From contig NZ_JAVJQO010000008.1 in NCBI RefSeq assembly GCF_040218225.1, positions 558,001 through 622,000 on the forward strand: a stretch of 64,000 nt of DNA. The letters run 5' to 3'. The notes beneath the pieces are model-generated. The model saw nothing but the letters and a program-made list of their open reading frames with translations. It was not told the DNA's origin and ran no database searches. Each line of letters opens with the position of its first letter. Within the stretch, counting starts at the first letter, position 1. The position numbers and the translations under genes were made by a program. Below, one piece after another: positions 1,834 through 47,945 of the stretch. This DNA is from Gracilimonas sp. Its GTDB lineage: Bacteria > Bacteroidota > Rhodothermia > Balneolales > Balneolaceae.

Positions 1834-2262
1834 TCACTTAAAATACCGATCCCATTCTACCATAATGCATTTGTTGCGGACATAGGGCAGTTCATGTTCT
1901 TTAGCAATTTGCTCAGCTTCAGGAGATGAAACATCCAACTGAGTCCACACCACAGGATTTTGGCCGGTTTGTTCTTTCCAGTCTGCTACATCCTGAGTTG
2001 CTTCTGCCGCATATTTAGAATTACGGAACACGTTGACCACATCGACTTGAATATCTTCAGGGATATTTGCCAGACTATTGTAGCATTTCTCCCCATAGAT
2101 TTCTTCCGCTTCCGGATTAATAGGTATTACTCTATACCCTCTCTCCTGCAAAAAACGGGCTGCATAGTTACTGGTGCGATATATGTTGGGTGAGCAGCCA
2201 ATCATGGCTATTGTTTTGGCTTCTGAGAGCACCTCATTGATATTACTAATTGTTTCAATCAT
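1834..2262 (-). CDS. CoA-binding domain protein (YccU-like)
   Basis: A 142-residue single-domain Rossmann protein of the CoA-binding family (COG1832, YccU-like). The glycine-rich turn TIAMIGCSPN lies near residue 17, followed by YAARFLQERGYRVIPINP and later VVNVFRNSK. The family resembles the N-terminal domain of succinyl-CoA synthetase alpha subunits, but no catalytic role is established for the stand-alone form. The gene is monocistronic and divergent from the FKBP gene, with about 90 bases between them for both promoters. Confidence 0.88.
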   Translation of the reverse strand: MIETISNINEVLSEAKTIAMIGCSPNIYRTSNYAARFLQERGYRVIPINPEAEEIYGEKCYNSLANIPEDIQVDVVNVFRNSKYAAEATQDVADWKEQTGQNPVVWTQLDVSSPEAEQIAKEHELPYVRNKCIMVEWDRYFK

Positions 2263-2351
2263 TAAAACCTGTCTTGATAACCGTCAATTGTATTCAAATA
2301 TCCTTATCTTTAGGCACTAAATCACTATAAACTAAAATTAAACGATTTATT

Positions 2352-2783
2352 TTGTCTAAAGTAAAAGACGGTGACACCGTAAAAGTCCACTACACTGGAA
2401 AATTAGAAGACGGATCAGTTTTTGATTCTTCTGTATCAAGAGACCCATTAGAAGTAACATTGGGTGAAGGGAAATTGATTCCAGGTTTTGAAAAAGCTGT
2501 TGTTGGTTTAGAAGTTGGAGATAAGACCACAGCTAATATTGAATCTGCCGATGCATATGGAGAGCGCAGAGAAGACCTGGAAGTGACAATCGAACGCGAA
2601 CAACTTCCTGAAGATATTGAGCCTGAAGTTGGAATGCAGCTTCAACTGAATCAGCCTAACGGCCAGCCTGTACCTGTACAAATCACTAAAGTAGAAGAGG
2701 AAAACATCATCATTGATGCGAACCATCCTCTGGCAGGTAAAGACCTGACTTTTGATATCGAGTTGATTGAAATCGTAAACTGA
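2352..2783 (+). CDS. FKBP-type peptidyl-prolyl isomerase, SlyD-like
   Basis: A 143-residue protein that speeds proline cis-trans isomerisation. The FKBP core is clear at the start (VKVHYTGKLEDGSVFDSS, residues 10-27), with ELGEGKLIPGFEKAVVGL-type residues following. An inserted flap of about 60 residues replaces the usual FKBP loop, as in SlyD; the end returns to the FKBP strand LTFDIELIEI. No signal peptide, so cytoplasmic. The His-rich metal-binding tail of E. coli SlyD is absent. The start is TTG: no in-frame ATG or GTG precedes the domain. A strong terminator follows. Confidence 0.93.
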   Translation: MSKVKDGDTVKVHYTGKLEDGSVFDSSVSRDPLEVTLGEGKLIPGFEKAVVGLEVGDKTTANIESADAYGERREDLEVTIEREQLPEDIEPEVGMQLQLNQPNGQPVPVQITKVEEENIIIDANHPLAGKDLTFDIELIEIVN

Positions 2784-2807
2784 TTCAACTTCTTCGAAAC
2801 GTAATTG

Positions 2808-2840
2808 ATGGAGTTCTTCGAGAGAAGGACTCCATTTTTT
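2808..2840 (+). terminator. Rho-independent terminator after the FKBP gene
   Basis: ATGGAGT at 2808 pairs with ACTCCAT at 2829, extended inward by TTC/GAA pairs around a GAGA-type loop, and followed by a run of T. It ends the FKBP transcript before the methyltransferase gene. Confidence 0.85.
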
Positions 2841-2869
2841 ATATCTGCTCTTAATACCTAAAAAATACC

Positions 2870-4015
2870 ATGGCTGATTTTTCTGAAAAAAGCACCATTT
2901 CTATAACCTGCCCCAAGCGAATCACCCCCTACCTGAAAAAAGAACTGGAAGATCTGGACTTTCCCATTCTTAAAGTTCGTCATGCCGGTATTGAAACAGA
3001 GGGCTCTTTGAACGACTGTATGTTACTGAATCTATCACTTAGAACAGCACACCGGGTTCATTTCAGGCTTAAAGACTGCCGGCCACAAAATGCAGATCAG
3101 TTGTACAACGAGCTGGTTAAGATTCCATGGGAAGATTATATCGACAAGCATGGATATGTAAGCGTCACTTCGTTCATCAATAATAAGACAGTGACAAATA
3201 CACAGTTCGCCAATATGAAAGTGAAGGATGCTATCGTAGATCGCATCCGGCAAAAGACCGGCACCCGACCCGATTCAGGACCTAACCTGAACAAGAGCGT
3301 TGTATTTGTGTTTTGGAAAAATGACCGGGCACAAATCTACCTGGATACCTCCGGTGAATCTGTATCCCGGCGGGGTTACCGTACAGAAACCAGTACGGCC
3401 CCCATGCAGGAAACACTGGCAGCTGCTCTAATCCTGGCAAGTAAATGGAAGCCCGGAAATCATTTTATCAATCCTATGTGTGGAAGTGGCACAATTGCCA
3501 TTGAAGCAGCTCTTCAAGCCCTGAATAAGGCTCCGGGACTCCTCCGGCCTAATTATGGAATCAAGCATATTCTCGGCTTTGATGAAGACCGCTGGAATGA
3601 TTTACGCTCTGATCTAAAGAATAAATCCAATAAAGACTTTGAAGGCCGTATTATAGCCACCGACCATGACATCCGTGCCGTAAATGCCACCCGCAAGAAT
3701 GCAAGAACGGCTGGCTTGGATCATTTGATTGAAGTGAGAAAATGTGACTTCAGTGAAACAGAAATTCCTGAAGGTGATCCGGGTGTTATAATGCTTAACC
3801 CACCTTATGGCGATCGCATTGGCAATGAGAAAGAATTGGAACCGGTGTATGAGGGGATCGGAGATTATTTCAAGCAAGAAGCGACCGGCTGGTGGGGCTA
3901 TGTATTTACTGGAAATTTTGATCTTGCTAAGAAAATCGGGCTACGAACTAATCAGCGTATTGAGTTTTATAACTCTACTATTGATGCTCGTTTACTCGAG
4001 TATGAGCTGTACTAA
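2870..4015 (+). CDS. THUMP-domain class I SAM-dependent RNA methyltransferase (RlmL/Trm-like)
   Basis: A 381-residue protein with an N-terminal ferredoxin-like/THUMP region (about residues 10-155) that binds RNA, and a C-terminal Rossmann methyltransferase domain. The SAM-binding motif NPMCGSGTIAIEAA lies near residue 203 and the catalytic NPPYG motif of base N-methyltransferases near residue 310. This is the architecture of RlmL (23S rRNA m2G2445) and related N2-guanine methyltransferases; the exact target cannot be read from sequence. The length fits the single-domain form, not the RlmKL fusion. It overlaps the convergent glycosyltransferase gene by four bases. Confidence 0.92.
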   Translation: MADFSEKSTISITCPKRITPYLKKELEDLDFPILKVRHAGIETEGSLNDCMLLNLSLRTAHRVHFRLKDCRPQNADQLYNELVKIPWEDYIDKHGYVSVTSFINNKTVTNTQFANMKVKDAIVDRIRQKTGTRPDSGPNLNKSVVFVFWKNDRAQIYLDTSGESVSRRGYRTETSTAPMQETLAAALILASKWKPGNHFINPMCGSGTIAIEAALQALNKAPGLLRPNYGIKHILGFDEDRWNDLRSDLKNKSNKDFEGRIIATDHDIRAVNATRKNARTAGLDHLIEVRKCDFSETEIPEGDPGVIMLNPPYGDRIGNEKELEPVYEGIGDYFKQEATGWWGYVFTGNFDLAKKIGLRTNQRIEFYNSTIDARLLEYELY

Positions 4016-7578: not shown

Positions 7579-8244
7579 TTGAATTTCATACCCGCAAACG
7601 AATCCCGCTTTTTTATCTGGTTCTTTGATCATTACACCCGCTGGTCTTTGAAAAGACGATTTAAGCAATTATGGATTAAACAGAATTACCAGCCCACTTC
7701 TACCTCCAGAACTGTCTATTTTTTGAACCACAATTTATGGTGGGATGGCTTAATCCCGTTGTACCTGAATGAAAACATCTTTCACCAAAAAGCCCGCGCC
7801 CTGATGGAAGACAAACAGATGCAGCAGTACACATTCTTTAGCAAAATCGGGGCGTTCTCCATTAACCTTGAAAATCCAAAAGCATCCATTCAATCCCTTC
7901 GGTATGCTGTGGAATCTTTGCAGCGAGAAAATTCCTGCCTGTTTATTTATCCTGAAGGAACCATTACACCCGCCTCAGATTCTGCTCCAGATTTCAAAGA
8001 AGGACTAGCCTGGCTGTACTCCAAAACGGAAAATGTCGACTATGTTCCTATCCATATTTACGCTCATTTCCTTAGAAGCAGTAAACCCGAGCTTTATATA
8101 TCAATAGGAAAATCAGTTGATTATTATAAGTCAATGAGCAGAAATGAATTAACTGAATTATTTGAGGCTGATATTCAACACTTAAATGAGCAAACCAGAC
8201 AAGTAGCCGGATTTTCTGATGAGGGATTCAAACCTCAATTTTAG
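7579..8244 (+). CDS. PlsC-type 1-acyltransferase, candidate carotenoid-glycoside acyltransferase
   Basis: A 221-residue acyltransferase of the PlsC superfamily. The catalytic HX4D motif is in FLNHNLWWDG (His near residue 51) and the acceptor-binding motif YPEGT is near residue 124. The start is TTG; no other start fits. Length and the aromatic WW in motif I differ from housekeeping PlsC. The next genes are a carotenoid hydratase and a GT2 glycosyltransferase, so a CruD-like role, adding a fatty acyl group to a carotenoid sugar, is plausible. That role is inference from neighbours; a phospholipid acyltransferase is the alternative. Confidence 0.85.
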   Translation: MNFIPANESRFFIWFFDHYTRWSLKRRFKQLWIKQNYQPTSTSRTVYFLNHNLWWDGLIPLYLNENIFHQKARALMEDKQMQQYTFFSKIGAFSINLENPKASIQSLRYAVESLQRENSCLFIYPEGTITPASDSAPDFKEGLAWLYSKTENVDYVPIHIYAHFLRSSKPELYISIGKSVDYYKSMSRNELTELFEADIQHLNEQTRQVAGFSDEGFKPQF

Positions 8245-8259
8245 CCTAAATAATTTAGG

Positions 8260-9327
8260 TTACCATGTCCACGGATATAATAAGCGTGATTTCTGAACCC
8301 AGTGCGGCCTTTGCTCCCTGTAGTTTAACCGCATATGCACTAATGGCCAGAACATCTTTTTATAAATATTTTCAGGATATATATACTCTGAAATTCCATG
8401 CGCCGCATATACTTGACCGTTGTAGTTAACAATAGATTCACCTTTAAATCTTTGATAGAAAGGGCCATCGTCTATTTTAGTGCTACATTGAATATTTACA
8501 GTAGTTTCACCTTCTTTTAACTCAATTTTCCGGGCTGATTTCAAACCAAACCAATTTCGGGTGAAATAGCTCATTTCGGCATCGCTAAACTTCTCCAACA
8601 CCTGTTGATTATCCCGGTCGATTAGCCATGCCTCAAACTGCTCGGTGTTCCGTTTTTGCATCAGGTAATAAACAAGAGTGAAATCCTTGAAGTGATACCT
8701 TCCCCAATACCAATCCCTGAAACTTTCTTTCATGGGTTCCTGCCCGGTGTTATGATCATGGTATCCATTGCCTGTAAAGTTCAGGACCTCTTCCCCATTC
8801 TTGCCGACTACTTCCAGCTGCGCTTTAACCGAAGTTCCCGGAGTAAGCAAGTTCCAGCTGTGGCGATCTTCACTGACCGACTGAATAAGATTCTCGTTTC
8901 CTTTAGTTGCCTCGCCTTTTATTCGGCCGTGAACTTTGTGACCAGAAGGTAATTCCTGACCTAGCTTAATCTCAAAACTCAACTCATTATTTTTGAACAC
9001 ATATTCTACCGAGTTCTGCTCAACCGACAGAGTTTTAGTCTCATCGTCCCACGTGAATTCATCCTTTCCAAATTCGAGGAAGCTATAATAAACCGTTTTT
9101 CCACCCTTATATAGTGAAACACTAATAGCCGGATAAGAGACCCTGCCAACCTGACCCGCCTCCAGATCCTTAATGTATTGAGTAGAAAAGGGATTGGTTT
9201 GATAGAATATAATCACAAACCCCTGCTGTCCATCCTCACTTAACCCATCAAAATACCACCATTCGTATCCACCGAACGACTTATTAAAATCTGGAGTTAT
9301 TTGCCTTACATCTGTAGATATATTCAT
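8260..9327 (-). CDS. crtC: Carotenoid 1,2-hydratase (CrtC-like)
   Basis: A 355-residue protein with the CrtC (hydroxyneurosporene synthase) pattern: GGYEWWYFDGLSEDGQQGF near residue 19, NGYHDHNTGQ near residue 187 and FRDWYWGRYHF near residue 203. CrtC adds water to the C1,2 double bond of an acyclic carotenoid end group, making the tertiary hydroxyl that can then be methylated or glycosylated. No signal peptide is visible. It is convergent with the acyltransferase and divergent from the GT2 gene. Related hydratase-fold proteins act on other lipids, so the substrate is inferred. No phytoene or lycopene genes are in the window. Confidence 0.8.
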   Translation of the reverse strand: MNISTDVRQITPDFNKSFGGYEWWYFDGLSEDGQQGFVIIFYQTNPFSTQYIKDLEAGQVGRVSYPAISVSLYKGGKTVYYSFLEFGKDEFTWDDETKTLSVEQNSVEYVFKNNELSFEIKLGQELPSGHKVHGRIKGEATKGNENLIQSVSEDRHSWNLLTPGTSVKAQLEVVGKNGEEVLNFTGNGYHDHNTGQEPMKESFRDWYWGRYHFKDFTLVYYLMQKRNTEQFEAWLIDRDNQQVLEKFSDAEMSYFTRNWFGLKSARKIELKEGETTVNIQCSTKIDDGPFYQRFKGESIVNYNGQVYAAHGISEYIYPENIYKKMFWPLVHMRLNYREQRPHWVQKSRLLYPWTW

Positions 9328-9386
9328 GCTAAAATAAAATAATCGTGTTGGTGAACGGCAACGCTCTGTTTGCTAACTTTCGTTCA

Positions 9387-10538
9387 ATGGACATACTTCT
9401 TTACATCGCAGCAACTTACATCGTATTTACCATTTTTGTGTTTATACGAAATTGGTTTGAATTCCACTCGCTGTCAAATCAATCTTATGGTAAACAGGAT
9501 TTCAGTTCCGCCCCTCTTGTCAGTATTTGTATCCCAGCCCGAAACGAGGAGACCGTAATTGAGCGATGTGTAACATCCGCACTTAAACAAGACTATCCCA
9601 ATTTTGAAGTACTGGTACTGGATGATAATTCCACGGACCAAACTACCGATATACTTAACAAACTATCCGGCATTATTAACAACCTTCACCATCTTAAAGG
9701 ACAGCCCAAACCTGATGAATGGCTGGGTAAACCCTGGGCGTGCCATCAATTGAGCGAAAAAGCAACTGGAGAATATTTAATATTCATTGATGCAGATGTG
9801 TGGCTGGAAGAAGATGCTATCAAAAAAGCTGTTAATGCGTTAAAAGCGTCTGACGCTATTACCGTTTGGCCTAAACAGCAGGTACAAACCTTTTGGGAAA
9901 AGCTCATTATTCCCATGATTTACTACGGCTTGTACACTTTATTACCGGCAAAGTATGTAGAACAAAACCCAAAATGGCTGCCAGCAAGTCTTAGAAAGAA
10001 AATGGCTCCCCAATTTGCGGCCGCCTGTGGACAGTTTATTGGATTTAACAGGAAAACATACACAGACATCGGTGGTCATACTTCCGTTAAACAGGATATT
10101 GTAGAAGATGTTCAACTTGCAAAAACCATTAAACGCCACGATTTAAAAATTACTATGTATGATGGAATCGGAACAGTAAACTGCAGGATGTACCGGTCTC
10201 ATTCTGAAATCTTTGAAGGGCTACGTAAAAACTTTTTTGTCGGCTTTGGAAGGAATGTACCTCTCTTTCTCTTTATGGCCATTATGCAATTCATAGTGTT
10301 TGTAGTTCCGGTATTGGCTTTGATCTTTGGAAATCCAGACTCACAAAAATTCGCAGCTGTTCTTATTAGTATTATTTTAATACAGCGCTGGCTGATGGAT
10401 TATAAGTTTGGGTGGAATCCTTTGATCAGCCTTTTACAGCCGTTTACTATTATTTGGTATGAGGTTCTTGGCATTCGTTGCCTTTGGGATCATTTCACCG
10501 GAAGAAAGGCCAGTTGGAAAGGCCGCGAAGTCGGATAA
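9387..10538 (+). CDS. Membrane GT2 glycosyltransferase (CruC-like candidate)
   Basis: A family 2 glycosyltransferase of about 383 residues. An N-terminal membrane helix (IAATYIVFTIFVFI) precedes the GT-A domain with VSICIPARNEETVIERC, the DDNSTD segment, the metal-binding DADVW motif, and a later GQFIGFNRKTY. Two or three C-terminal membrane segments follow. The frame is open upstream to a GTG at 9345, but ATG 9387 places the hydrophobic helix at the N terminus and is preferred. Neighbouring CrtC hydratase and acyltransferase genes suggest it glycosylates a carotenoid hydroxyl, as CruC does in green sulfur bacteria. Substrate is inference. Confidence 0.85.
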   Translation: MDILLYIAATYIVFTIFVFIRNWFEFHSLSNQSYGKQDFSSAPLVSICIPARNEETVIERCVTSALKQDYPNFEVLVLDDNSTDQTTDILNKLSGIINNLHHLKGQPKPDEWLGKPWACHQLSEKATGEYLIFIDADVWLEEDAIKKAVNALKASDAITVWPKQQVQTFWEKLIIPMIYYGLYTLLPAKYVEQNPKWLPASLRKKMAPQFAAACGQFIGFNRKTYTDIGGHTSVKQDIVEDVQLAKTIKRHDLKITMYDGIGTVNCRMYRSHSEIFEGLRKNFFVGFGRNVPLFLFMAIMQFIVFVVPVLALIFGNPDSQKFAAVLISIILIQRWLMDYKFGWNPLISLLQPFTIIWYEVLGIRCLWDHFTGRKASWKGREVG

Positions 10539-35391: not shown

Positions 35392-36879
35392 TTGAAAACT
35401 AAAAACAGCAGATTTATGGGTTCACAGAATCCGGCTTTAAATGATGTGAAAGATTGCTTCAGGGAACAGGTTTCGAGACTTGACCTGTCTGAGGCCATTG
35501 ATCTTATCTCTGAAAACCAAAAACAGTTTCAATATCTCTCCTTTTCTATTCAGATTCCTGCAGTTGATGCGCTTGCTGTATTAGAACAATATCCGGATAA
35601 GAACACCTTCCAATACTACTGGGAAAAGCCATCTGCTGAATTTTCCATTGCGGCAGCGGGTTCGCTTGCCCGTATTCAGACCACAGGTCAGCAACGCTTT
35701 CGTAGTGCCTCTGATCAGGGAAAAGAACTGCTCAGTAAGGTACATCACATTTCCAACCTGAAACACCATCTGGCATCCGTTCACTTGTTAGGCGGATTTT
35801 CATTCTTCGATCACAATGTTGGCAAACAATGGAGAGAATTTGGGGCTGGGTCATTTAACTTACCTGAATGGGTTTTGGTGAGAGAAGGAAAATTTACCGT
35901 ATTAACGGTTACAAAAAAGATTGATTCGTCCGATTCAGAGTCTGAAATCTATCATTCATTTGTACACACATTCGACAAGCTTGATCGAATCTGTGATGCC
36001 GGCACCTATAACATTGAGTCCAAGAAATCCTTTACATCCAAAATAGAGACCCCGGGTATAGAATCTGAAGACTACAAAAAGTGGGTTGATTCTGTAGAAA
36101 ATGCCACCGATCTGATAAAATCAGAAGAATTCAAGAAAATCGTACTTGCTCGCGAGCTTACAGTAAAATTAAGAGAACCTGTATCGGATACCCGTCTTTT
36201 AAATTACCTCCGAAATCAATATCCCGATTGTTATTCTTTTTTAGTTAGTCAGGATGGGAAATCCAGCTTTATTGGAAGCACGCCTGAACGGCTGGCCTCT
36301 TTTCACGACCGGGAAGTTCTGACCGAAGGGTTGGCTGGCAGTATTTCCAGAGGTAAGACAGCCTCTGAAGACGCCGTACTTGAATATGAACTTCTTCATA
36401 GCCAGAAAGACCTGAGTGAACATGCTTTTGTGTTAGACGCTATCGAGGAAAACCTGCAGCGCTATTCTGATGTATTTGAACATCCTGTTTCTCCCGGTGT
36501 AAAAAAGCTTTCCAATGTACAGCATCTTTACACCCCGGTTCATGCCCGAATCAAAAAAGGCGTTTCGCGCACTGAGGTACTTTCCCGCCTCCATCCTACA
36601 CCGGCCGTTGGCGGATATCCCCGAGAAGCTGCTATGCCGTATATCAGCAAACTCGAACATTTTGACCGCGGCTGGTACGCTGCTCCTATCGGCTGGATTA
36701 ATGCGAATGGCGAAGGAGAGTTCGTAGTGGCAATCCGCAGCGGATTAATTAAATCTAATGAGGTGAGATTTTTCGCAGGATGTGGTATTGTTGAGGACTC
36801 AAACCCTCAAAAAGAATGGGATGAAACAAATCTTAAGTTCATCCCCATGCTAACTGCGTTGGAACATGCAAGAAAATGA
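35392..36879 (+). CDS. menF: Isochorismate synthase MenF
   Basis: A 495-residue chorismate-utilising enzyme, the first step of the classical menaquinone pathway. The catalytic domain is C-terminal: KIVLARELTVKL near residue 248, GSTPERLASF near 301, HPTPAVGGYPREAA near 402, and FDRGWYAAPIGW near 424, with the metal-binding Glu residues and the Lys general base in the expected positions. The start is TTG, with an ATG eight codons downstream (35416) as the alternative. The last 14 bases overlap menD. Confidence 0.92.
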   Translation: MKTKNSRFMGSQNPALNDVKDCFREQVSRLDLSEAIDLISENQKQFQYLSFSIQIPAVDALAVLEQYPDKNTFQYYWEKPSAEFSIAAAGSLARIQTTGQQRFRSASDQGKELLSKVHHISNLKHHLASVHLLGGFSFFDHNVGKQWREFGAGSFNLPEWVLVREGKFTVLTVTKKIDSSDSESEIYHSFVHTFDKLDRICDAGTYNIESKKSFTSKIETPGIESEDYKKWVDSVENATDLIKSEEFKKIVLARELTVKLREPVSDTRLLNYLRNQYPDCYSFLVSQDGKSSFIGSTPERLASFHDREVLTEGLAGSISRGKTASEDAVLEYELLHSQKDLSEHAFVLDAIEENLQRYSDVFEHPVSPGVKKLSNVQHLYTPVHARIKKGVSRTEVLSRLHPTPAVGGYPREAAMPYISKLEHFDRGWYAAPIGWINANGEGEFVVAIRSGLIKSNEVRFFAGCGIVEDSNPQKEWDETNLKFIPMLTALEHARK

Positions 36880-38581
36880 ACCTCAGAATGCCGCTTTTAA
36901 CTGGAGTACTACTTTTGTCCGCTCCCTGTTTGAAGAAGGTATTGAACACGTTGTAATTTCACCGGGCTCACGCTCTACGGCCCTGACTCTGGCTTTTTCA
37001 GCCCATTCAGGATTTAAAAAACATATCGGCATTGATGAGCGCTCAGCAGCCTTCACAGCACTTGGAATAGGAAAATATACAGGTAAACCAGCCGTGCTTA
37101 TTTGCACTTCAGGAACAGCTGCTGCCAATTATTTCCCTGCTGTGATTGAAGCTTCACAGTCTGGCATCCCGATGATTGTGGTAAGTGCGGATCGCCCTCC
37201 ACATTATCGTGGACTTGGAGCCTCCCAAACGATTGATCAGTTAAAGTTATTCGGGAGTTATACGGTGTTTTTTCATGAAGTGGGCGAACCCGACTCTCAT
37301 GAAAAAAGTAAAAATCGCCTCAAACTGGCTGCATCTCAGGCCGTTCAAATCTCTATCGAAAAAAGTGGCGTATCTCATTTGAACTTCCCGTTTTCAAAAC
37401 CTTTTGAGCCAGACAGGAAATACCTTAAGCAGGTTGAGTTTGAAAATGAAAAGCAATCCCGCCGCCCTTCTCCCAAATACACCTATGAAACCGGGAAAAT
37501 GGAGCTGGGAGAAACTTTTTGGTCTGATCTGATCTCAGCTGAACGGCCTCTGATCGTTGTCGGACCTACTTCAAAATCCGATAAACTTGATTTTATTACA
37601 CAGCTCGCCCGCACTCTGGATGCACCCGTGTTAGCCGAGCCGGGTTCCCAGGTACCCACATCGCGACATACTATACAGGGTTTCGATGGTTTTTTGAGAA
37701 ATAATGAAAACTGGGAAGAATTGAATGCCGACTTAATTCTTCGCTTTGGCTCACAGCCTGTTAGTAAAGCAGTAAATCAATATCTTGATAAGCACTCTGA
37801 CACCATGCAGATTAGCTTTATGAATCCCAATCAATGGATTGATGGAAGTCTTTCTTCTCAAAAACAGATTATGCTTAAAGGGGCACTTCTGATTCCCGAA
37901 GTGACTGGATCGGCCGGAAAAGACTGGCTCAAAAGATGGAAAAAAGCTGAAAAAGATTTTAAAGCTTTTCGTGAAGAGCATCTTCACCCCTCCGCCCCTA
38001 TTACCGATGGCTATGTATTTTCCAAGATCATGGAAACCATCCCTAAAAAAGCATTTACCATGCTTTCGAATTCTTTTCCGGTTCGGGATATGTCGCTTTT
38101 TGGGGAATTTGATGGAAAGGAAATCTTTGTGAATCGTGGAGCGGCCGGTATCGATGGAATTACATCAACGGCTTTGGGATTAAGTATTGCTGCTGAGAAA
38201 CCGGGAGTACTTTTTGTGGGTGATATTGCCTTCCTCCATGACACTAATGCCTTACTGATGGCCAGGGAAGTTTCACAACCACTCGTCATCGTTATTCTGA
38301 ATAACGGAGGCGGAACCATATTCCGAATGCTTCCGGTTCATCAAATCAAGGACAAATACACTACCTACTTTGAAACCCCACAAAAAGTAAAGATTGCCGC
38401 ACTTTGCAGGGCACACAATATTGATCATACCCTCGTTTCGAGACCGGAGCAAATTATTGCTACCTTTGACAAACTCATTCAAAAAAATGGAGTTCATGTT
38501 ATGGAATGTATGACCGGTGCTGATGAATCGATGGAACAACGCCACGCCCTTTGGAATTTTAAGGTGACTGAAAGCTCATGA
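36866..38581 (+). CDS. menD: SEPHCHC synthase MenD (thiamine-diphosphate enzyme)
   Basis: A 571-residue enzyme that joins isochorismate and 2-oxoglutarate, releasing CO2. The N-terminal half has HVVISPGSRSTALTLAF near residue 29 and IGIDERSAAF, and the ThDP-binding region near residue 435 onward includes VGDIAFLHDTNALLMA. The catalytic Glu is in the N-terminal segment (DERSAAF). The gene overlaps menF and menH (ATGA), so translation is coupled. Confidence 0.94.
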   Translation: MQENEPQNAAFNWSTTFVRSLFEEGIEHVVISPGSRSTALTLAFSAHSGFKKHIGIDERSAAFTALGIGKYTGKPAVLICTSGTAAANYFPAVIEASQSGIPMIVVSADRPPHYRGLGASQTIDQLKLFGSYTVFFHEVGEPDSHEKSKNRLKLAASQAVQISIEKSGVSHLNFPFSKPFEPDRKYLKQVEFENEKQSRRPSPKYTYETGKMELGETFWSDLISAERPLIVVGPTSKSDKLDFITQLARTLDAPVLAEPGSQVPTSRHTIQGFDGFLRNNENWEELNADLILRFGSQPVSKAVNQYLDKHSDTMQISFMNPNQWIDGSLSSQKQIMLKGALLIPEVTGSAGKDWLKRWKKAEKDFKAFREEHLHPSAPITDGYVFSKIMETIPKKAFTMLSNSFPVRDMSLFGEFDGKEIFVNRGAAGIDGITSTALGLSIAAEKPGVLFVGDIAFLHDTNALLMAREVSQPLVIVILNNGGGTIFRMLPVHQIKDKYTTYFETPQKVKIAALCRAHNIDHTLVSRPEQIIATFDKLIQKNGVHVMECMTGADESMEQRHALWNFKVTESS

Positions 38582-39399
38582 ATATCCGCGTAAGAGGAAT
38601 CTCTTATCACTTTGATATTCACCAGGAAAATGAAACACTGCCTTCACTTGTACTTCTTCATGGTTTCATGGGCAGCGGAAGGCAATTTGATCATCTGATT
38701 CCTGAGCTCAAGAAATTCTGCAATCCCATCACCATTGATCTTTTGGGGCACGGACAAACCGAAGGAGCAGAACTGCACTATCGTTTTTCAACCAAAGAAC
38801 AAGTCGCAGACGTAACCAAGCTGATCAGTGAACAGCTGCAAATTCCTCTTTTCCTATATGGATATAGCATGGGAGGACGATTAGCCCTTCAGCTTGCCTT
38901 GCACCGCCCCGATCTATACAAAGGTCTGATTCTTGAAAGCAGCACCTTTGGCATTGAAGGAGAAACAGAACGACAGGCCCGGCAAGCCCTGGATGCCCGC
39001 CGATCAGATGCCATCACCGGAAATTTTAAAGGCTTTTTGGAGGAGTGGACAGAAATGCCTCTTTTCAATTCCGGAAATCCAGCGCCTGAACTGGTTGCGA
39101 AAATGGCAGAAATTCAGCAAGACCAAGAACCTTTCTGGCTGGCCAACAGCTTGCAGGGTTTTGGCACCGGAACCATGCCGTGCGTTCGGGATTTTCTGGG
39201 TGAAATTCCTATTCCCGTACAACTACTGGTTGGGGAAAAGGATTCGAAATTTCTGCACATTAACCGGCAAATGGAAAAAGAGCTCCGTGAACCGGAATTA
39301 GCGGTTGTGAAAGACGTCGGCCACCGCGTACATTTGGATCAACCGGAACAACTGATGGCTCAACTTAAAAACTTTATTCAAAAAAGACCTTTATCATGA
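38578..39399 (+). CDS. menH: SHCHC synthase MenH (alpha/beta hydrolase)
   Basis: A 273-residue alpha/beta hydrolase that removes pyruvate from SEPHCHC. The oxyanion loop LLHGFMGSGRQFDHL is near residue 26, the nucleophile elbow GYSMGGRLALQLAL near 95, and the catalytic His in VGHRVHLDQPEQL near residue 245. The place between menD and menB fixes its role; hydrolases of this fold are not otherwise distinguishable. Overlaps both neighbours by four bases. Confidence 0.92.
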   Translation: MNIRVRGISYHFDIHQENETLPSLVLLHGFMGSGRQFDHLIPELKKFCNPITIDLLGHGQTEGAELHYRFSTKEQVADVTKLISEQLQIPLFLYGYSMGGRLALQLALHRPDLYKGLILESSTFGIEGETERQARQALDARRSDAITGNFKGFLEEWTEMPLFNSGNPAPELVAKMAEIQQDQEPFWLANSLQGFGTGTMPCVRDFLGEIPIPVQLLVGEKDSKFLHINRQMEKELREPELAVVKDVGHRVHLDQPEQLMAQLKNFIQKRPLS

Positions 39400-40232
39400 A
39401 CTGGCAAACTGTCAAAGAATACGAAGACATCACCTATAAAAAATCGAACGGAGTGGCACGTATTGCTTTTAACCGTCCTGAAATCCGGAATGCGTTTCGC
39501 CCCAAGACCGTGTTTGAGTTGTATGAGGCTTTAAGTGATGCCAAAGAGGATAATGATATCGGAGTGGTTCTTTTAAGTGGAGAAGGTCCTTCTCCCAAAG
39601 ATGGGAAGTGGGCATTCTGCTCCGGCGGTGACCAAAATGTGCGTTCCAAAACCGGTTATAAAGCGGATGATGGTATTGCCCGGCTGAATATCCTGGAAGT
39701 ACAGCGACTCATCCGGTTCATGCCTAAAGTGGTAATTGCCGTGGTTCCCGGCTGGGCCGTGGGTGGCGGACACAGTCTACATGTAGTTTGTGACCTCACC
39801 TTAGCCAGTAAAGAGAACGCCATTTTCAAACAAACCGATGCGGATGTTGCCAGCTTTGACGGCGGATTCGGTTCTGCCCTGCTCGCCCGACAGGTAGGAC
39901 AAAAACGCGCCCGGGAAATTTTCTTCCTCGGAGCCAACTATTCCGCCCAGGAAGCTTTTGAAATGGGAATGGTGAACCAGGTTGTTCCGCATGAAGAACT
40001 CGAGGAAACGGCTTATGAATGGGCACAGGAAATATTGGCTAAAAGTCCGACAGCCATCAAAATGATCAAGTTTGCCTTTAACGCCATTGACGACGGCATG
40101 GTTGGTCAGCAGGTATTTGCCGGAGAAGCTACCCGGTTAGCTTATATGACCGACGAAGCCGAAGAAGGTCGCAATGCCTTCCTGGAAAAACGTAAGCCCA
40201 ACTGGGACAAATTTGACCGTTCACCTTCTTAA
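39396..40232 (+). CDS. menB: 1,4-dihydroxy-2-naphthoyl-CoA synthase MenB
   Basis: A 278-residue crotonase-fold enzyme that cyclises o-succinylbenzoyl-CoA. The crotonase motifs WAFCSGGDQNVR near residue 70 and GWAVGGGHSLHVVCDL near 115 are present, with the MenB-specific VASFDGGFGSALLA near residue 149. The C-terminal end is FLEKRKPNWDKF. It is the last gene of the menF-D-H-B block. The substrate-making enzymes MenC and MenE lie about 7 kb downstream. Confidence 0.95.
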   Translation: MNWQTVKEYEDITYKKSNGVARIAFNRPEIRNAFRPKTVFELYEALSDAKEDNDIGVVLLSGEGPSPKDGKWAFCSGGDQNVRSKTGYKADDGIARLNILEVQRLIRFMPKVVIAVVPGWAVGGGHSLHVVCDLTLASKENAIFKQTDADVASFDGGFGSALLARQVGQKRAREIFFLGANYSAQEAFEMGMVNQVVPHEELEETAYEWAQEILAKSPTAIKMIKFAFNAIDDGMVGQQVFAGEATRLAYMTDEAEEGRNAFLEKRKPNWDKFDRSPS

Positions 40233-40262
40233 AACCGCCACGAAAACTCCAAAGCACTAAAT

Positions 40263-40541
40263 ATGAATATTAAACACGACACTACCGAAACTAAAGGCTC
40301 CTTCTACATAGAGCAGGAAGGTAAGCGTGTGGCTGAAATGACCTATTCCAAAGCCGGCCCGGAACGCATTATCATAGATCATACAGAAGTTTCTGATGAA
40401 ACCCGCGGTGAGGGTTTAGGGAAGAAATTAGTTTATGAGGCTGTAGAATATGCCCGGAAAAACAATTTGAAGATTTTACCACTATGCCCTTTTGCCCGTT
40501 CGGTGTTTAGCAAAAATTCTGAAATCAGAGATGTGACTTAG
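40263..40541 (+). CDS. Small GNAT-type N-acetyltransferase (YjdJ/Acetyltransf_CG-like)
   Basis: A 92-residue protein with the compact acetyl-CoA fold: MNIKHDTTETKGSFYIEQEG, then TEVSDETRGEGLGKKLVYEA (the acetyl-CoA-binding loop RGEGLG) and a final LPLCPFARSVF. Members of this family lack the N-terminal half of normal GNAT enzymes, and the substrate is unknown. It follows menB by 30 bases in the same direction and may be on the same transcript. Confidence 0.88.
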   Translation: MNIKHDTTETKGSFYIEQEGKRVAEMTYSKAGPERIIIDHTEVSDETRGEGLGKKLVYEAVEYARKNNLKILPLCPFARSVFSKNSEIRDVT

Positions 40542-40549
40542 ATAGTGTC

Positions 40550-41761
40550 TTATTCATGCCGAATGGCATCGACTGGAGTTAAATTAGCTGCTTTCCAGGC
40601 GGGATAGGTCCCAAAAACCATACCTACGATAATAGCTACAATCAATACCACACCAACGGTATCTACACTAAGTGCTGCCTGAAATCCAAGATCGGTAAAA
40701 CGGTTTATGATTTCGACCAGTCCAAAAACTCCGGCTACCCCCACTATCCATCCGATGATGCAGCCAACGATGGAGATGGTCACAGACTCTGAAATAAACT
40801 GCATCACGATATCTTTCTTTCGGGCTCCGGTTGCCTTACGAATTCCAATTTCTTTCGTCCGCTCCGTTACTGAAATCAGTAATACATTCATAATTCCGAT
40901 GCCTCCCACCAGCACAGAAATACCCGTTATTGCTCCCATCACCAGCTTAAAAACAAGGATTCCCTGACTCAGTTGCTGCACCCTTCCTTCATAAGTAAAA
41001 ACACTGAACGCTTCTTTACCCTCTTCATAATTCTGATCCAGCCAGTTTTCGACCGCAGAGCGCATTTCCGGTAAATCTTCTACTCTTCTGCTTTTAAAAA
41101 CGATATTTGGAGAGTTACTGCCCTTCACATATTCCTGATATGATCTCATGGGTATCATGGCCTGAGCGCCCCTGGATTCGTCATTTAAAATTCCAATTAT
41201 TTCATATGACTCGTTTTCAAAAGTGATGCTTTGGCCAATCAGCTCTTTTACATTGGAAGACCATTTCTCAGCCAGGGGTTTTGTCAGAACGGTTTTCTTT
41301 GCAGCATTTTCCACATCCGATTTACTGAAATAGCTTCCTTCAATTTCAGCTTCGGCAAAGTGTGGTACATTTTCCAGGGTAGCCTGAATATAGATTGCCA
41401 GCGAAGAGTCATTTAAGGTTGCCAGACGTGAACTATTTGCTAGCAACTCCGTGTAGCCCCACTGTGAAGTTCTTTCTTCCAAAGCCCGGGCCTCAGCGAT
41501 TCCGAACTGGTAAACCGTATCCCTGGGAACCCGCACATCATTGACGATGTCAACCGTCTTGGGAGTTATGGTCATCATTTGAACAGAAGTAGTGGTTTCA
41601 ATTTGTTCGCGGCCGGTTTGCTCCAGTCCATCTCCAAGAGCTAGAATAGCTACCAAAGATGCCACGCCAATAATAATTCCAAGTGTGGAGAGAAAGGTGT
41701 GAAGCGGATTGGCCTTAATATTCTGAAGGGCAATGGACACCGATTTAATGATCTGCTGCAT
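40550..41761 (-). CDS. MacB/FtsX-type ABC transporter permease
   Basis: A permease of about 403 residues with the MacB architecture: one N-terminal helix (LHTFLSTLGIIIGVASLVAI), a large periplasmic MacB_PCD domain (about 45-265), and three C-terminal helices with the FtsX motif VLLISVTERTKEIGIRKATG near residue 300. It exports or signals across the inner membrane with an ATPase and a membrane fusion protein, neither of which is adjacent. ATG 41761 is preferred; ATG 41809 is possible, and the 41836 start lies inside a terminator. Confidence 0.88.
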   Translation of the reverse strand: MQQIIKSVSIALQNIKANPLHTFLSTLGIIIGVASLVAILALGDGLEQTGREQIETTTSVQMMTITPKTVDIVNDVRVPRDTVYQFGIAEARALEERTSQWGYTELLANSSRLATLNDSSLAIYIQATLENVPHFAEAEIEGSYFSKSDVENAAKKTVLTKPLAEKWSSNVKELIGQSITFENESYEIIGILNDESRGAQAMIPMRSYQEYVKGSNSPNIVFKSRRVEDLPEMRSAVENWLDQNYEEGKEAFSVFTYEGRVQQLSQGILVFKLVMGAITGISVLVGGIGIMNVLLISVTERTKEIGIRKATGARKKDIVMQFISESVTISIVGCIIGWIVGVAGVFGLVEIINRFTDLGFQAALSVDTVGVVLIVAIIVGMVFGTYPAWKAANLTPVDAIRHE

Positions 41762-41821
41762 ATCTGTTTTTTTGGTTAGATGTGAAGATTTACGCCAACT
41801 CACTTTCATTGTTTCAGCATC

Positions 41822-41856
41822 AAAAAAAAGCCCCACTCCTTTGGAGCGAGGCTCAT
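41822..41856 (-). terminator. Rho-independent terminator after the small membrane protein gene
   Basis: On the minus strand AGCCTCGCTCC pairs with GGAGTGGGGCT (one mismatch) and is followed by a run of eight T. It separates the small membrane protein gene from the permease gene. Confidence 0.88.
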
Positions 41857-41877
41857 ATTAAAGCAGAGTCTTATGTA

Positions 41878-42138
41878 CTACATCGACTCAAACCCACCGG
41901 CACCCGACATCATTGCCCCAAAGAAAATGAAGGCAAATACCAGATAGAGTACAAATCCAACTGCAAAAATAATCAGCGTAGCTTTAGCCCAATTCTTTTT
42001 ATTTGGATTGGTGCTGTCACTAAATGCCCAAACTAACAGCATAATAAACCCGATAACCGGTATGAATGAAATTAAAACCGAAATAACCCAGTCTTTAAGA
42101 CTCATTACCGGTGCTGTTTCCCCTTGGATATTTTCCAT
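41878..42138 (-). CDS. Small two-helix membrane protein
   Basis: An 86-residue protein with two hydrophobic segments (about 14-38 and 50-78) separated by a polar loop DSTNPNKKNW. It has the size and pattern of small uncharacterised membrane proteins of Bacteroidota. No function can be assigned. Its transcript ends at the terminator just described. Confidence 0.72.
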   Translation of the reverse strand: MENIQGETAPVMSLKDWVISVLISFIPVIGFIMLLVWAFSDSTNPNKKNWAKATLIIFAVGFVLYLVFAFIFFGAMMSGAGGFESM

Positions 42139-42226
42139 AGTAGTCTCCGTTAGTTAAAAGTATACCGGAAATATGTACAAAACGGATGTTTCTTACAAGT
42201 AGATGCGCACCAACGAATAGCCTTTC

Positions 42227-42679
42227 TTATCTGACCTCTATCGTCATCGAGGAAGTATCGGATTCAATTATGAAATGAGCGTCTTTCCAGGAAGCAGGGC
42301 CAAATCGACCTCTTGCATTATTTGAAAAGCCATAAGCCTCTTTCGGGATACCCAGTAAATTCGAATCCAGCTCACCATTCACATTCTTATCGTGATATAC
42401 TGCGATAGCATATTCACCAAAAATAAGACTGTCCTGAGACCAAACTACTGTTGAATTATCAACAGGAAGTACAACCGCATAGAGTGGGTTCTCTTTTTCG
42501 TTGTACTCTTTTTCGGAGTTGAATAAAGCAATTCTGATCTCTCCTTCTACTTTATCAATACCTTCTATCTTTAGTTCAAAGTTCGACATTCTTTGGTGGT
42601 TTTCGGGATAGGATATTTCCTGGGCACAAAGCGTAAGGGAAACACAGAAAAGTGCGCATAGAAACAAAATGTGCTTCAT
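42227..42679 (-). CDS. DUF2141 family exported protein
   Basis: A 150-residue protein with a signal peptide ending at LCAQ (about residue 20). The mature part matches DUF2141: GEIRIALFNSEKEY near residue 46, then FGEYAIAVYHDKNVNGELDS near residue 87 and IPKEAYGFSNNARGRFGPAS near 110. Function unknown. Probably periplasmic; it forms no operon with its neighbours. Confidence 0.88.
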   Translation of the reverse strand: MKHILFLCALFCVSLTLCAQEISYPENHQRMSNFELKIEGIDKVEGEIRIALFNSEKEYNEKENPLYAVVLPVDNSTVVWSQDSLIFGEYAIAVYHDKNVNGELDSNLLGIPKEAYGFSNNARGRFGPASWKDAHFIIESDTSSMTIEVR

Positions 42680-42744
42680 CGGGACTCAAACTAATTTGTA
42701 GATGAAAATTATTTATATCAATAAACTTATGAAACTAAAATCAC

Positions 42745-43083
42745 TTAAAATAGTTTCATTCCATTTGGTACTTTTTTGTCGGTAGTGGCAAGTACAACAT
42801 TCCCATTCTTGTCGGGAAAACCGGTTACCAAACATTCAGACATAAACGGCCCAATTTGTTTAGGCGGAAAGTTTACAACCGCTATCACCTGTTTGCCCTC
42901 TAATTCTTTGGGTTCATAGTGTTCGGTAATTTGAGCCGATGACTTCCGAATACCAAGCTGTTCACCAAAATCTATGGTAAGCTTATAAGCAGGCTTTATA
43001 GCTTCAGAAAATTCTTCCGCTTTAAGTATGGTGCCTGTTCTTATTTCAACTTGCTCAAACTCTTTCCAGCTAATTTCATTCAT
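42745..43083 (-). CDS. csaA: CsaA-type tRNA-binding/chaperone protein
   Basis: A single OB-fold tRNA-binding domain of about 112 residues. It starts at ATG 43083 (NEISWKEFEQVEIRTGTILK) and has AYKLTIDFGEQLGIRKSSAQ, GKQVIAVVNFPPKQIGPFMS and the final LATTDKKVPNGMKLF, which is the CsaA signature. CsaA binds tRNA and in Bacillus acts as a chaperone for exported proteins. The open frame runs to 43110, but homologues begin at 43083. Confidence 0.9.
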   Translation of the reverse strand: MNEISWKEFEQVEIRTGTILKAEEFSEAIKPAYKLTIDFGEQLGIRKSSAQITEHYEPKELEGKQVIAVVNFPPKQIGPFMSECLVTGFPDKNGNVVLATTDKKVPNGMKLF

Positions 43084-43212
43084 ATTTTTTATCAGCATTT
43101 TGATTTTCAACTGTGAAACCTTTGGACAAAGCTAGTGATAGTTTTTAAAAAATCTACACCTGGCCTATAGACTTGTCTAGCCACAATTTGCAATAAACAT
43201 CTTCCAAAATCA

Positions 43213-43251
43213 TAAAAGCCCTTCTCTCTTTTTTGAAAGCAGGGCTTTTAT
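43213..43251. terminator. Two-way hairpin terminator
   Basis: AAAAGCCCT and AGGGCTTTT form a stem around a loop of about 19 bases. It has A and T runs on its two sides, and lies between the T9SS client gene (which ends at 43280 on the minus strand) and csaA. Confidence 0.75.
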
Positions 43252-43279
43252 GGATGGAATATTTGCTTAACAGAGTGGT

Positions 43280-44539
43280 CTATTTAATCAATGTCATAGA
43301 TCGAACCAGCTGATTCTGACCAGACACCAACTTGTAATAATAAATCCCGCTCGAAAGCGAAGAGGCATTAAAGCCCACTACATGATTTCCTGCATTTTGA
43401 TTGGTATTTACTAAAGTAGCCACGCGTTCGCCCAATACATTATAAACTTCCAAAAGTACTTTGCCCGGAGCCGAGATCTCATAAGCAATTTGTGTAGTTG
43501 GGTTAAATGGATTCGGGTAGTTCTGAGAGAGTTTGAAGGTAGCAACCTTATCGTCGTACTCCGGAACTGATGTCACCATACCGTACTCATAGAGCGTCCG
43601 GCTTTCGTCGTCCCATATCGTTCCATCAAATGAATAGGTTGCCAGGTCTTCAGAAATTTTACCATTTTCGTAGGTATAGCTATTTCTGTACTCCGAAACC
43701 CAACTGGCTTCACTTTCATAATAGTACTCTTCTACCATTTCAGTGACCATATCACCGTCATAATTCAGTATAGTTCTTGAATAAGGCACCCAAACTTCAT
43801 CGTCAGTATAATATTCGTCATTGTATACCTCTACAAAAAAGAACTCATTGAAAACATTTTTCAAATATTCATCAAAAGACAAGCCTGCATAGGTGTACCT
43901 GTCTATGTAAGATGATTCATAATAGGCTTCAACGAATGCATTTTCCCTGTTAACGAAATAGCCGGTCAATTCCGGTTCCTCATCTTCTCCAGTCAGAGTG
44001 TTGTAAATGAGTATCGAATCAGGTGTAATGTATTCGAGCTCAATTTTCTCAGAATATGATTCTCCTTCATAGGTTTCCGAAAAAGTAGCCGAATCAAGCC
44101 GACCTGACTCCGAGTAATGGAATGTTTGAGTAAACACATCTCCCAATAACCCATAGGAGTAACTTACAGGAAGCCCGTCTTCAGTAAATACGAATGTGTA
44201 AGAACCATCCCCTTCCCATCCTTCTTCGCTATAAAATTGCCAGTTTTGGGTAATCGTAAGACGATCGGCACTGTATGAATAGTTAATCCGATAGGCATTC
44301 ATCCAACCTTCTTCCGAAGTCCACTGCAAGGTACTTCGCCCGATGTCATTATCGGTTTTATACCTGGAGTTGAGAACCTGAAATGGCAGCAATGGTTTTT
44401 CAGTACTCTTGACTAGCAATGCTGACTTTTTTGTTTTTCGCTCATTATCAAATGATGATTGAGCCATAATGTCTGCACTGGTTATTAAGGAAAGCATAAC
44501 CATACCAGCTACAATACTATTTATAGTTTTCTTATACAT
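43280..44539 (-). CDS. Secreted protein with type IX (type A) sorting domain
   Basis: A 419-residue exported protein: signal peptide to about residue 27 (ADIMAQ), a middle part of beta-rich tyrosine- and acid-rich repeats of the kind YYESEASWVSEYRNSYTYEN, and a C-terminal T9SS sorting tail. The tail starts QNYPNPFNPTTQIAYEI near residue 345 and ends with SGIYYYKLVSGQNQLVRS and a final lysine. The tail sends it through the SprA pore, after which it is normally cleaved and anchored. The function of the passenger is unknown; the repeats resemble wall-associated tandem modules. It is the only clear T9SS client in this window. Confidence 0.9.
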   Translation of the reverse strand: MYKKTINSIVAGMVMLSLITSADIMAQSSFDNERKTKKSALLVKSTEKPLLPFQVLNSRYKTDNDIGRSTLQWTSEEGWMNAYRINYSYSADRLTITQNWQFYSEEGWEGDGSYTFVFTEDGLPVSYSYGLLGDVFTQTFHYSESGRLDSATFSETYEGESYSEKIELEYITPDSILIYNTLTGEDEEPELTGYFVNRENAFVEAYYESSYIDRYTYAGLSFDEYLKNVFNEFFFVEVYNDEYYTDDEVWVPYSRTILNYDGDMVTEMVEEYYYESEASWVSEYRNSYTYENGKISEDLATYSFDGTIWDDESRTLYEYGMVTSVPEYDDKVATFKLSQNYPNPFNPTTQIAYEISAPGKVLLEVYNVLGERVATLVNTNQNAGNHVVGFNASSLSSGIYYYKLVSGQNQLVRSMTLIK

Positions 44540-44633
44540 ATACCCCTCTCTAATTTTGTTTTTTTGTTTGATCCGGTAACCGTATGCCGAACAAACAAAT
44601 ATGCTTTAAAATCTGATTTTTAAAAATTAGAAA

Positions 44634-44669
44634 AAAAGCCCTGCCTCCTTTCGGAAACAGGGCTTTTAT
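44634..44669 (-). terminator. Rho-independent terminator after glutamine synthetase GSII
   Basis: On the minus strand AAAAGCCCTG pairs with CAGGGCTTTT around GTTTCCGAAAGGAG-type loop bases, followed by a run of T. It lies just after the glnII stop codon. Confidence 0.88.
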
Positions 44670-44692
44670 CTTTTCAATAAGTTTTAGCCAGC

Positions 44693-45703: not shown

Positions 45704-45983
45704 ATGAATAAAAAGTTATTTTGGTGTTTCGAAATTAAACAGTGAGAATATAAAGCACTTTTAAGAAAAAGCTCAAATTATTTAATCAAAATTTTATTAA
45801 CTATTAAATAATATAGCTTTTATAAATTCACACCTTAATTATTTTACCTGCAACCGCTTCCACCGAGCTGCTTACTTAATTTATTTTTTCTGTGAATTGA
45901 AATGACTTCACTTTTTAAGCCCTTTCCAAAAGTTGTATCTTCGCTCACAAAGTTATCCACAACCATTCACCAAAAATTTCACG

Positions 45984-47941: not shown

Positions 47942-47945
47942 GTAT

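Follow-up and report, generated by a model that had tools for sequence, protein, structure and literature searches.

The salinixanthin pathway of the Rhodothermales (Rhodothermus marinus, Salinibacter ruber) uses CruF, CruC and CruD, and in R. marinus the acyl-hexosyl part of the pigment gives fragments at m/z 341 and 359 (PMC5822342). In Chlorobaculum tepidum, the account in PMC6166724 has OH-gamma-carotene glucoside laurate made by CrtC, CruC and CruD in sequence, and in Thermus thermophilus TT_P0062 and TT_P0061 are given as CruC and CruD in PMC4021367. The DNA analysed here, a 64,000-nucleotide stretch (the window), is from a red-orange marine bacterium of the order Balneolales.

Three adjacent genes in the window have their enzyme families in common, by homology, with the chlorobactene glucoside laurate branch of C. 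tepidum, the hydratase being of the CrtC type and not CruF. Among 13 FMO-bearing green sulfur genomes, the GT2 glycosyltransferase found a full-length match in every one (1e-94 to 1e-110), with a second, weaker match in five, and the acyltransferase found one in 12. In the green sulfur genomes that we opened the genes were dispersed, with no GT2 match in the CrtC loci (L112-L121, L126, L128), whereas in the Balneolales window they are adjacent. Green sulfur bacteria also possess FMO, which is absent from the window genome, and the polyene therefore cannot be assumed to be chlorobactene. The Rhodothermales are a sister order in the same class, and in two of their genomes (G233, G237) the GT2 and acyltransferase genes again lie beside the hydratase, all within about 4 kb, however the hydratase there is CruF (PF04240), where ours is CrtC-like. 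A further likeness to the salinixanthin pathway is that the window genome carries a CrtO-like and a CrtD-like gene. In the thermozeaxanthin cluster of T. thermophilus pTT27 (TT_P0057-TT_P0066), a GT2 homologue (E 1e-37) adjoins a PlsC-like acyltransferase and a lycopene cyclase, but the hydroxyl comes from a P450 gene product (listed as CrtZ in PMC4021367) and not from CrtC, and the Thermus CruD matches our acyltransferase profile weakly (26 bits), which weighs against reading the trio as a module.

The kinds of enzyme are already known; what is new is their tie to the Balneolales, the unusually compact trio, and CrtC where the Rhodothermales use CruF. In the open-licence PMC literature we found neither a description of these genes in Balneolales nor enzyme or pigment data for any of its members. 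Judged from sequence, the trio is very probably a tailoring module that acts on the psi end in a C40 carotenoid pathway, the core genes of which are found in other parts of the genome.

The trio and its predicted CrtC-like hydratase

The trio consists of the following features:

7579..8244, + strand: PlsC-like, candidate CruD-like acyltransferase, 221 aa, TTG start
8260..9327, - strand: putative CrtC-like carotenoid 1',2'-hydratase, 355 aa, ATG start
9345..10538, + strand: CruC-like membrane GT2 glycosyltransferase, 397 aa, GTG start

The first-pass annotation had an acyltransferase, a CrtC-like gene and a GT2 gene side by side, and all three open-reading frames were recovered at the coordinates and strands that it gave, separated by 15 bp and 17 bp. 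Its view that they do not form one operon in this genome also holds, as the middle gene lies on the - strand and the outer two on the + strand. An in-frame ATG at position 9387, matching the start of many homologues, is a likely alternative start for the GT2 gene. Scanning for promoters and terminators returned sites no commoner than in shuffled sequences.

Family models placed the CrtC-like protein only broadly. In Pfam it matched DA_N (PF24137) at 30.5 bits, over the cut-off, with AsqO_C below its cut-off, and it had no match to PF07143, the Pfam CrtC model. The best NCBIfam model was carotenoid 1,2-hydratase (NF045922), at 60.6 bits against a cut-off of 400; on this model two green-sulfur CrtC-type proteins scored 26 and 35, and an annotated purple sulfur CrtC scored 280. 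As the model is narrow and the score falls below its cut-off, we assign the product to the wider CrtC superfamily and not to that equivalog. Against the FMO-bearing green sulfur bacteria, the Balneolales CrtC profile gave matches of about 1e-38 to 1e-69, most of them spanning almost all of the profile. Residues H239, W241, Y266 and D268 are described as essential in RgCrtC in PMC4717167; the spacing of this tetrad is present in a plasmid-borne purple sulfur CrtC, and H156, W158, Y189 and D191 of the window protein, its candidate catalytic residues, align with the tetrad of the latter. All four are kept in 121 of 122 distinct homologues, and the lone exception (G047) has lost all four in a genome which carries the unrelated hydratase CruF. 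PF07143 picked up one protein in the whole genome, AttH-like and encoded next to an ABC transporter (C3:211 kb); it is without the tetrad and was rejected as the hydratase.

CrtC and CruF rarely share a genome. Across 394 genomes of the phylum, the CrtC profile (A1) matched in 155 and CruF in 106, with both in 4 where 41.7 would be expected if they were independent, a comparison confounded by phylogeny. CruF (PF04240) had no match in the window genome, and occurred in two of 77 relatives, one without a CrtC-like match, the other with only the tetrad-less homologue. Among the genomes listed, 19 of the same class but of other orders had no CrtC-like match. FMO was found in 13 of 21 genomes tested, these being all 13 tested from the CrtC-bearing families f26, f39, f23 and f53. 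The earlier assignment of this gene as CrtC-like is thus well supported, by green-sulfur homology, by the catalytic tetrad and by avoidance of the alternative hydratase CruF, and the product of 8260-9327 is best regarded as a predicted CrtC-type hydratase.

The AlphaFold model of the protein (pLDDT 89.6) shows the predicted CrtC/AttH-type two-domain beta fold, though having a fold in common does not establish the reaction. Its nearest folds (Foldseek, VIA-align) were headed by the Diels-Alderases Phm7, Fsa2 and CghA (Z 27-28.5), ahead of AttH (Z 22.6 over 279 residues) and kievitone hydratase (Z 21.2 over 277), with 25-phosphosteroid lyase also among the nearest solved folds; absence of a family from the VIA-align list does not exclude that family. 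This ranking, together with the DA_N match, would fit a protein acting on another terpenoid or on a polyketide and not on a carotenoid. We consider this very unlikely: the window protein keeps the CrtC tetrad, which the AttH-like paralogue encoded in its genome lacks; CrtC and CruF seldom occur together, and the homologue in G047, which has CruF, is without the tetrad; and the gene is linked to carotenoid transferases. Kievitone hydratase and 25-phosphosteroid lyase themselves attach a group to, or take one from, a tertiary carbon of an isoprenoid, which also counts against this alternative.

The glycosyltransferase and acyltransferase

The GT2 protein matched Glycos_transf_2 (PF00535, 102.4 bits) and was the only protein of the window genome that the GT2 profile picked up at E<=1e-30, with D94, D149, D151 and D255 invariant in the alignment (DAD at 149-151). 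Its best NCBIfam model was the hopanoid protein HpnB (TIGR03469), at 173.6 bits against a cut-off of 379, followed by CruG, at 86.6 bits against 600. By profile score it therefore belongs to the same GT2 subfamily as HpnB, however a true HpnB from a hopanoid cluster scored 539 bits on this model, whilst a green-sulfur GT2 scored 206 and GT2s from crt clusters 91-139, so that 174 bits is at the level of carotenoid GT2s. Once the three long rows were left out, the tree grouped it with the green-sulfur GT2s (86/90); deep branches did not resolve in this tree or in the one that included those rows, and a Balneolales plus HpnB clade was not rejected (p-AU 0.509). When ten plasmid GT2 regions were opened, seven proved to be carotenoid clusters, one hopanoid, one without annotation and one other. 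Clear green-sulfur homologues, and homologues in carotenoid operons of unrelated bacteria, support the proposed GT2 assignment.

The acyltransferase matched PF01553 over the cut-off (36.3 bits), whilst in NCBIfam it reached 25.9 bits on AGP_acyltrn (TIGR00530), far under the cut-off of 103. Its motif NHNLWWDG contains H51-x4-D56, which we take to be the HX4D of the PlsC/LPLAT superfamily, and H51, W54, W55 and D56 are invariant in the alignment (A3). Its assignment likewise stands: green sulfur bacteria have homologues of it, others occur in carotenoid operons, and one of these operons is from a Balneolales genome and carries CruF. Grouping with lipid enzymes had been named beforehand as the outcome that would speak against a carotenoid role, and was not seen for the acyltransferase, where 34 candidate carotenoid rows separated from 2 true PlsC rows, the only lipid rows in the tree and one of them the genome's own PlsC (100/100).

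The HpnB model's first place and the p-AU value would both fit a hopanoid or other lipid glycosyltransferase (HpnB-like) beside a phospholipid acyltransferase, with their place next to the CrtC-like gene a historical one. We hold this to be very unlikely, given the score of true HpnB, given that homologues of the two transferases occur together in crt operons, and given that the genome's own PlsC was not among the matches of the acyltransferase profile, even with the limit relaxed to E<=10. The window genome has a single SQS_PSY (CrtB-type) protein, closest to phytoene synthase, and so lacks an HpnC/HpnD pair. All three trio proteins do fall under the curated NCBIfam cut-off of their best model, which weighs against a carotenoid module.

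Linkage of the trio across genomes

Of 80 named loci retrieved along with the CrtC alignment, linkage was assessed in the 64 that have 1.5 kb or more of sequence to either side. A GT2 gene lay <=700 bp from the CrtC-like gene in 51 of the 64 (none adjoining in 13), an acyltransferase lay <=900 bp away in 30 (missing nearby in 34), and both were beside it in 29. The clustering had been called suggestive at first sight, and linkage is indeed above chance. The order acyltransferase, CrtC, GT2 recurred in L127, which comes from a different family and from a genome negative for FMO, and the trio of an Ignavibacteria MAG (L206) is one operon with overlapping open-reading frames. Named strains with the trio include Gracilimonas mengyeensis DSM 21985 and Fodinibius roseus DSM 21986. 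The transferases also keep company where the hydratase is CruF: their homologues are neighbours in the G047 operon (crtI-crtB-x-crtYcd-crtD-AT-GT2-cruF) and adjoin each other in the CruF-bearing G046. Others were found in carotenoid clusters of Cytobacillus, Azospirillum, Gluconobacter, Microvirga and Deinococcus, and in 12 of 16 plasmid acyltransferase records, among the matches listed, a GT2 match lay <=2 kb away. Two genomes (G053, G071) possess the GT2 with no hydratase detected, which weighs against the module. That the trio is only a shared Balneolales syntenic block with no common function is barely credible: synteny within family f1 does extend to many of the genes around it (xerC-like, hprK-like and others), but the GT2-CrtC neighbourhood is retained in the differing contexts of families f31, f46 and f52, the pair forms an overlapping operon with the acyltransferase in the Ignavibacteria MAG, and in G054 the trio is retained despite a different left flank.

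Proposed pathway and its reach

The analysis establishes the gene content, the homology, the retention of both the catalytic residues and the linkage, and the avoidance of CruF. Elsewhere in the window genome we found CrtI (613 bits, over the cut-off), with CrtD-like (363 bits) and CrtO-like (380 bits) proteins both below theirs. The neighbourhoods of crtB, crtI and the crtD-like and crtO-like genes were opened in search of a crt cluster; the trio was in none of them and the core genes are dispersed. A CarR-type lycopene cyclase (TIGR03462) occurs in three of 77 relatives, and the window-genome copy reads in two frames, leaving no intact lycopene cyclase of the CarR-type family searched, which weighs against the module.

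We infer the enzyme activities, sugar, acyl chain and polyene end groups as follows. In the first step (8260-9327), the CrtC-type enzyme would protonate the terminal 1',2' double bond via the acidic aspartate D191, assisted by Y189, H156 and W158, and water would quench the tertiary cation to give a 1'-hydroxy carotenoid. The membrane GT2 (9345-10538) would then move a sugar, probably glucose, onto the 1'-hydroxyl, and the PlsC-type acyltransferase (7579-8244) would finally esterify that sugar with a fatty acyl chain, iso-C15:0 being among the main fatty acids of the family. With CrtB, CrtI, a CrtD-like 3',4'-desaturase and a CrtO-like ketolase in the genome, the pathway would most likely end in a hydrophobic 1'-hydroxy carotenoid acyl glycoside, similar in kind to chlorobactene glucoside laurate and salinixanthin, which would be seated in the membrane. 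Salinixanthin is a rhodopsin antenna, and by analogy the pigment may serve as one.

A wider proposal seems to us evenly balanced between right and wrong: that salinixanthin-like acyl-glucosyl (keto)carotenoids are made throughout the order Balneolales, a green-sulfur-type CrtC filling the role that the unrelated CruF has in the sister order, and that the hydratase was switched in two Balneolales lineages, G046 pairing its native GT2 and acyltransferase with CruF, and G047 acquiring an entire CruF operon as all the catalytic residues of its former CrtC were lost, the transferases being an ancient cassette which accepts either hydratase. Reading the trio as a tailoring module predicts pigment chemistry throughout an order of marine and salt-lake bacteria, with all three tailoring enzymes named. 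The compact CrtC-CruC-CruD cassette, including the overlapping-operon form of the Ignavibacteria MAG, would be fit for heterologous production of carotenoid acyl glycosides, and G047, with CruF and a CrtC relative lacking the four catalytic residues, offers a natural experiment on the exchange of unrelated hydratases.

The trio and its genomic context

The first-pass annotation had placed an acyltransferase, a CrtC-like protein and a membrane GT2 glycosyltransferase side by side in the window (G000 contig C8, 558001-622000). The claimed positions match the open-reading frames exactly, and domain searches concur with all three labels, with the caution that the CrtC and GT2 scores lie below cut-off.

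Features of the trio region
7579-8244, + strand, acyltransferase (ORF position confirmed, domain searches)
8260-9327, - strand, CrtC-like protein (ORF position confirmed, domain searches)
9345-10538, + strand, membrane GT2 (ORF position confirmed, domain searches)
Upstream of the trio, opposite strand, O-methyltransferase-like gene (named by eye from translation)
Downstream of the trio, XerC-type recombinase gene (named by eye from translation)

The genes are convergent and then divergent, with spacings of 15 bp (acyltransferase/CrtC) and 17 bp (CrtC/GT2). In the best reading, the three encode homologues of CrtC, CruC and CruD and would hydrate a carotenoid, glycosylate it and acylate it. Neither these kinds of enzyme nor the pathway is novel; what is new is the compact module across Balneolales, the presence of CrtC where the sister order Rhodothermales uses CruF, and a genome (G047) that has gained CruF and in whose CrtC relative the active site is gone. 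Elsewhere in the window (35392-49430) lies an ordinary menaquinone-type gene run (menF, menD, menH, menB, menA, menC and menE like, by eye).

The only SQS_PSY protein encoded by the window genome scores best against phytoene synthase (286 bits, vs 221 for HpnD and 151 for HpnC). The genome also encodes a CrtI over cut-off (613 bits), and CrtD-like (363 bits, cut-off 500) and CrtO-like (380 bits, cut-off 1000) proteins; none of these genes, including that for the SQS_PSY protein, is linked to the trio. The crtB-trio distance is ~133 kb here vs ~15 kb in G051 (L083 and L096, G051:C1). The sole cyclase seen is a CarR/CrtYcd-type lycopene cyclase gene (L095:9235-10039; G000:C6, near 330 kb), which falls into two reading frames when compared with G047 and is therefore broken or carries a sequencing error; within family f1 this cyclase type occurs in the window genome only, perhaps in an acquired region. 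Gracilimonas species are reported to be red, pink or orange, to lack flexirubin in the cases assayed, and to have iso-C15:0 among their main fatty acids (PMC5167729).

Linkage of the three genes in other genomes

The acyltransferase(+)-CrtC(-)-GT2(+) order was found again in Balneolales families f1, f4 and f5, whilst in family f3 (L058) the acyltransferase and CrtC are together and the GT2 is located elsewhere. Much of this order is general synteny within f1, and loci outside Balneolales are better evidence. A profile built from 18 Balneolales CrtC-like proteins matched 155 of 394 phylum genomes, including many from families f26, f39, f23 and f53, which we take as green sulfur bacteria because all 13 tested members carry the FMO antenna protein (PF02327) and none of eight other genomes tested does. 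A same-subfamily GT2 was nearby in four of 17 distant CrtC loci opened (L123, L124, L125 and L127), and L127 holds the complete trio in an arrangement identical to the window's.

Of 80 named loci scanned, 64 extend for 1.5 kb or more in each direction and were counted: a GT2 lay ≤700 bp from the CrtC-like gene in 51, an acyltransferase ≤900 bp away in 30, and both in 29. The 13 loci lacking the GT2 comprise eight from Balneolales (L153, L157, L158, L162, L181, L194, L195, L199) and five of Acidobacteriota type (L202, L207-L210); these five are Pyrinomonadaceae/Blastocatellia-type CrtC-like homologues with neither GT2 nor acyltransferase adjoining. In an Ignavibacteria MAG (L206), the trio forms a single overlapping operon.

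Trio of L206
384-1115, acyltransferase
1106-2134, CrtC
2131-3315, GT2

At green sulfur loci L112, L117 and L126 the CrtC-type gene lies near Rieske- and/or cytochrome b-looking genes (by eye from translations), a neighbourhood seen in several green sulfur lineages, from which the Balneolales linkage differs.

The probable CrtC-like hydratase and its possible replacement by CruF

The window CrtC-like protein had no match to Pfam PF07143 and scored 60.6 bits against the NCBIfam CrtC model (cut-off 400). In C. tepidum, OH-gamma-carotene glucoside laurate is reportedly produced via CrtC, CruC and CruD (PMC6166724), and in Rubrivivax CrtC, alanine at H239, W241, Y266 or D268 is reported to abolish activity, the aspartate being the proposed protonator of the double bond (PMC4717167). 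An annotated Thiodictyon plasmid CrtC, adjoining two crtD genes, has these essential residues at identical spacing and also keeps the non-essential H264 position; window H156, W158, Y189 and D191 align with its essential residues. All four are kept in 121 of 122 distinct homologues (each ≥320 aa). Fungal Diels-Alderases are the best structural matches of an AlphaFold model (pLDDT 89.6, pTM 0.90), at Z 27-28.5; AttH follows with 22.6, kievitone hydratase with 21.2 and 25-phosphosteroid lyase with 19.3. Such matches fit the CrtC family, the fold alone being no proof of reaction.

CruF (PF04240) is a 1',2'-hydratase unrelated to CrtC. Among 77 relatives, CruF occurs in two (G046 and G047) and a CrtC-like gene in 70; a search of G046 for the latter gave no match. 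The divergent G047 homologue (28% identity; L059:9004-10017, G047:C2) is the sole one of the 122 to have lost all four catalytic residues, and may be a decaying relic following a hydratase swap. Across the 394 genomes, CrtC was found in 155, CruF in 106 and both in four (G154, G179, G265, G302), against 41.7 expected if independent, a comparison confounded by ancestry; among the matches listed, none of 34 CruF-bearing same-class genomes outside the order was CrtC-positive. CruF matches in Rhodothermales (G300, G267, G104 and others) lie in open frames of 580-930 aa, whose length suggests fusions of CruF with another domain, and such a fusion is reported from Thermomicrobium (PMC2615216).

The two transferases in carotenoid clusters

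In G047, homologues of both window TRANSFERASES (acyltransferase, GT2) lie within a single operon, ordered crtI, crtB, 227-aa protein, crtYcd, crtD, acyltransferase, GT2, cruF (the crtI and crtD labels rest on similarity and gene position), and in G046 the two homologues adjoin each other. In Rhodothermales, cruF, acyltransferase and GT2 span ≤2.4 kb in G237 and ≤3.9 kb in G233. In G084 the acyltransferase is close to cruF and the GT2 distant, resembling the layout reported for R. marinus, with cruD inside the cluster and cruC elsewhere; that study reportedly found neither CrtC nor CruF (PMC5822342).

Among 72,556 plasmids, the GT2 matched 89 records and the acyltransferase 16, in at least 12 of which a GT2 match lay ≤2 kb away (among the matches listed); CP029831, CP071630, CP048283 and NC_016585 had the acyltransferase and no GT2 match among the 60 listed. 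Ten plasmid GT2 regions were opened, and seven are carotenoid clusters (Thermus, Staphylococcus, Cytobacillus, Azospirillum, Deinococcus, Gluconobacter, Microvirga), one is a hopanoid cluster (Mycetohabitans), one has no annotation (Cupriavidus) and one is neither (Acaryochloris). A T. thermophilus model assigns TT_P0062 as CruC and TT_P0061 as CruD (PMC4021367); the Thermus acyltransferase itself is a weak match (26 bits).

The first-pass annotation had named a placement of the GT2 and acyltransferase with lipid enzymes as refuting its reading. In the acyltransferase tree, 34 candidate carotenoid rows split from two true PlsC rows, one from the window genome and the other from G051, with 100/100 support. 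The window rows fall inside Balneolales groups that include G046, at 98/94 for the acyltransferase and 100/100 for the GT2. The deep branches of the GT2 tree are poorly supported; green-sulfur rows form one group (98/96), and removal of three long rows joined Balneolales with green-sulfur/Ignavibacteria at 86/90, but the AU test did not reject a Balneolales and HpnB clade (p-AU 0.509). The top NCBIfam model for the window GT2 is hopanoid HpnB (173.6 bits, cut-off 379), and here the score test is clearer than the tree: against TIGR03469, a true HpnB scores 539 bits, a green-sulfur GT2 206, the window GT2 174, and the GT2s of three carotenoid clusters 91, 139 and 139.
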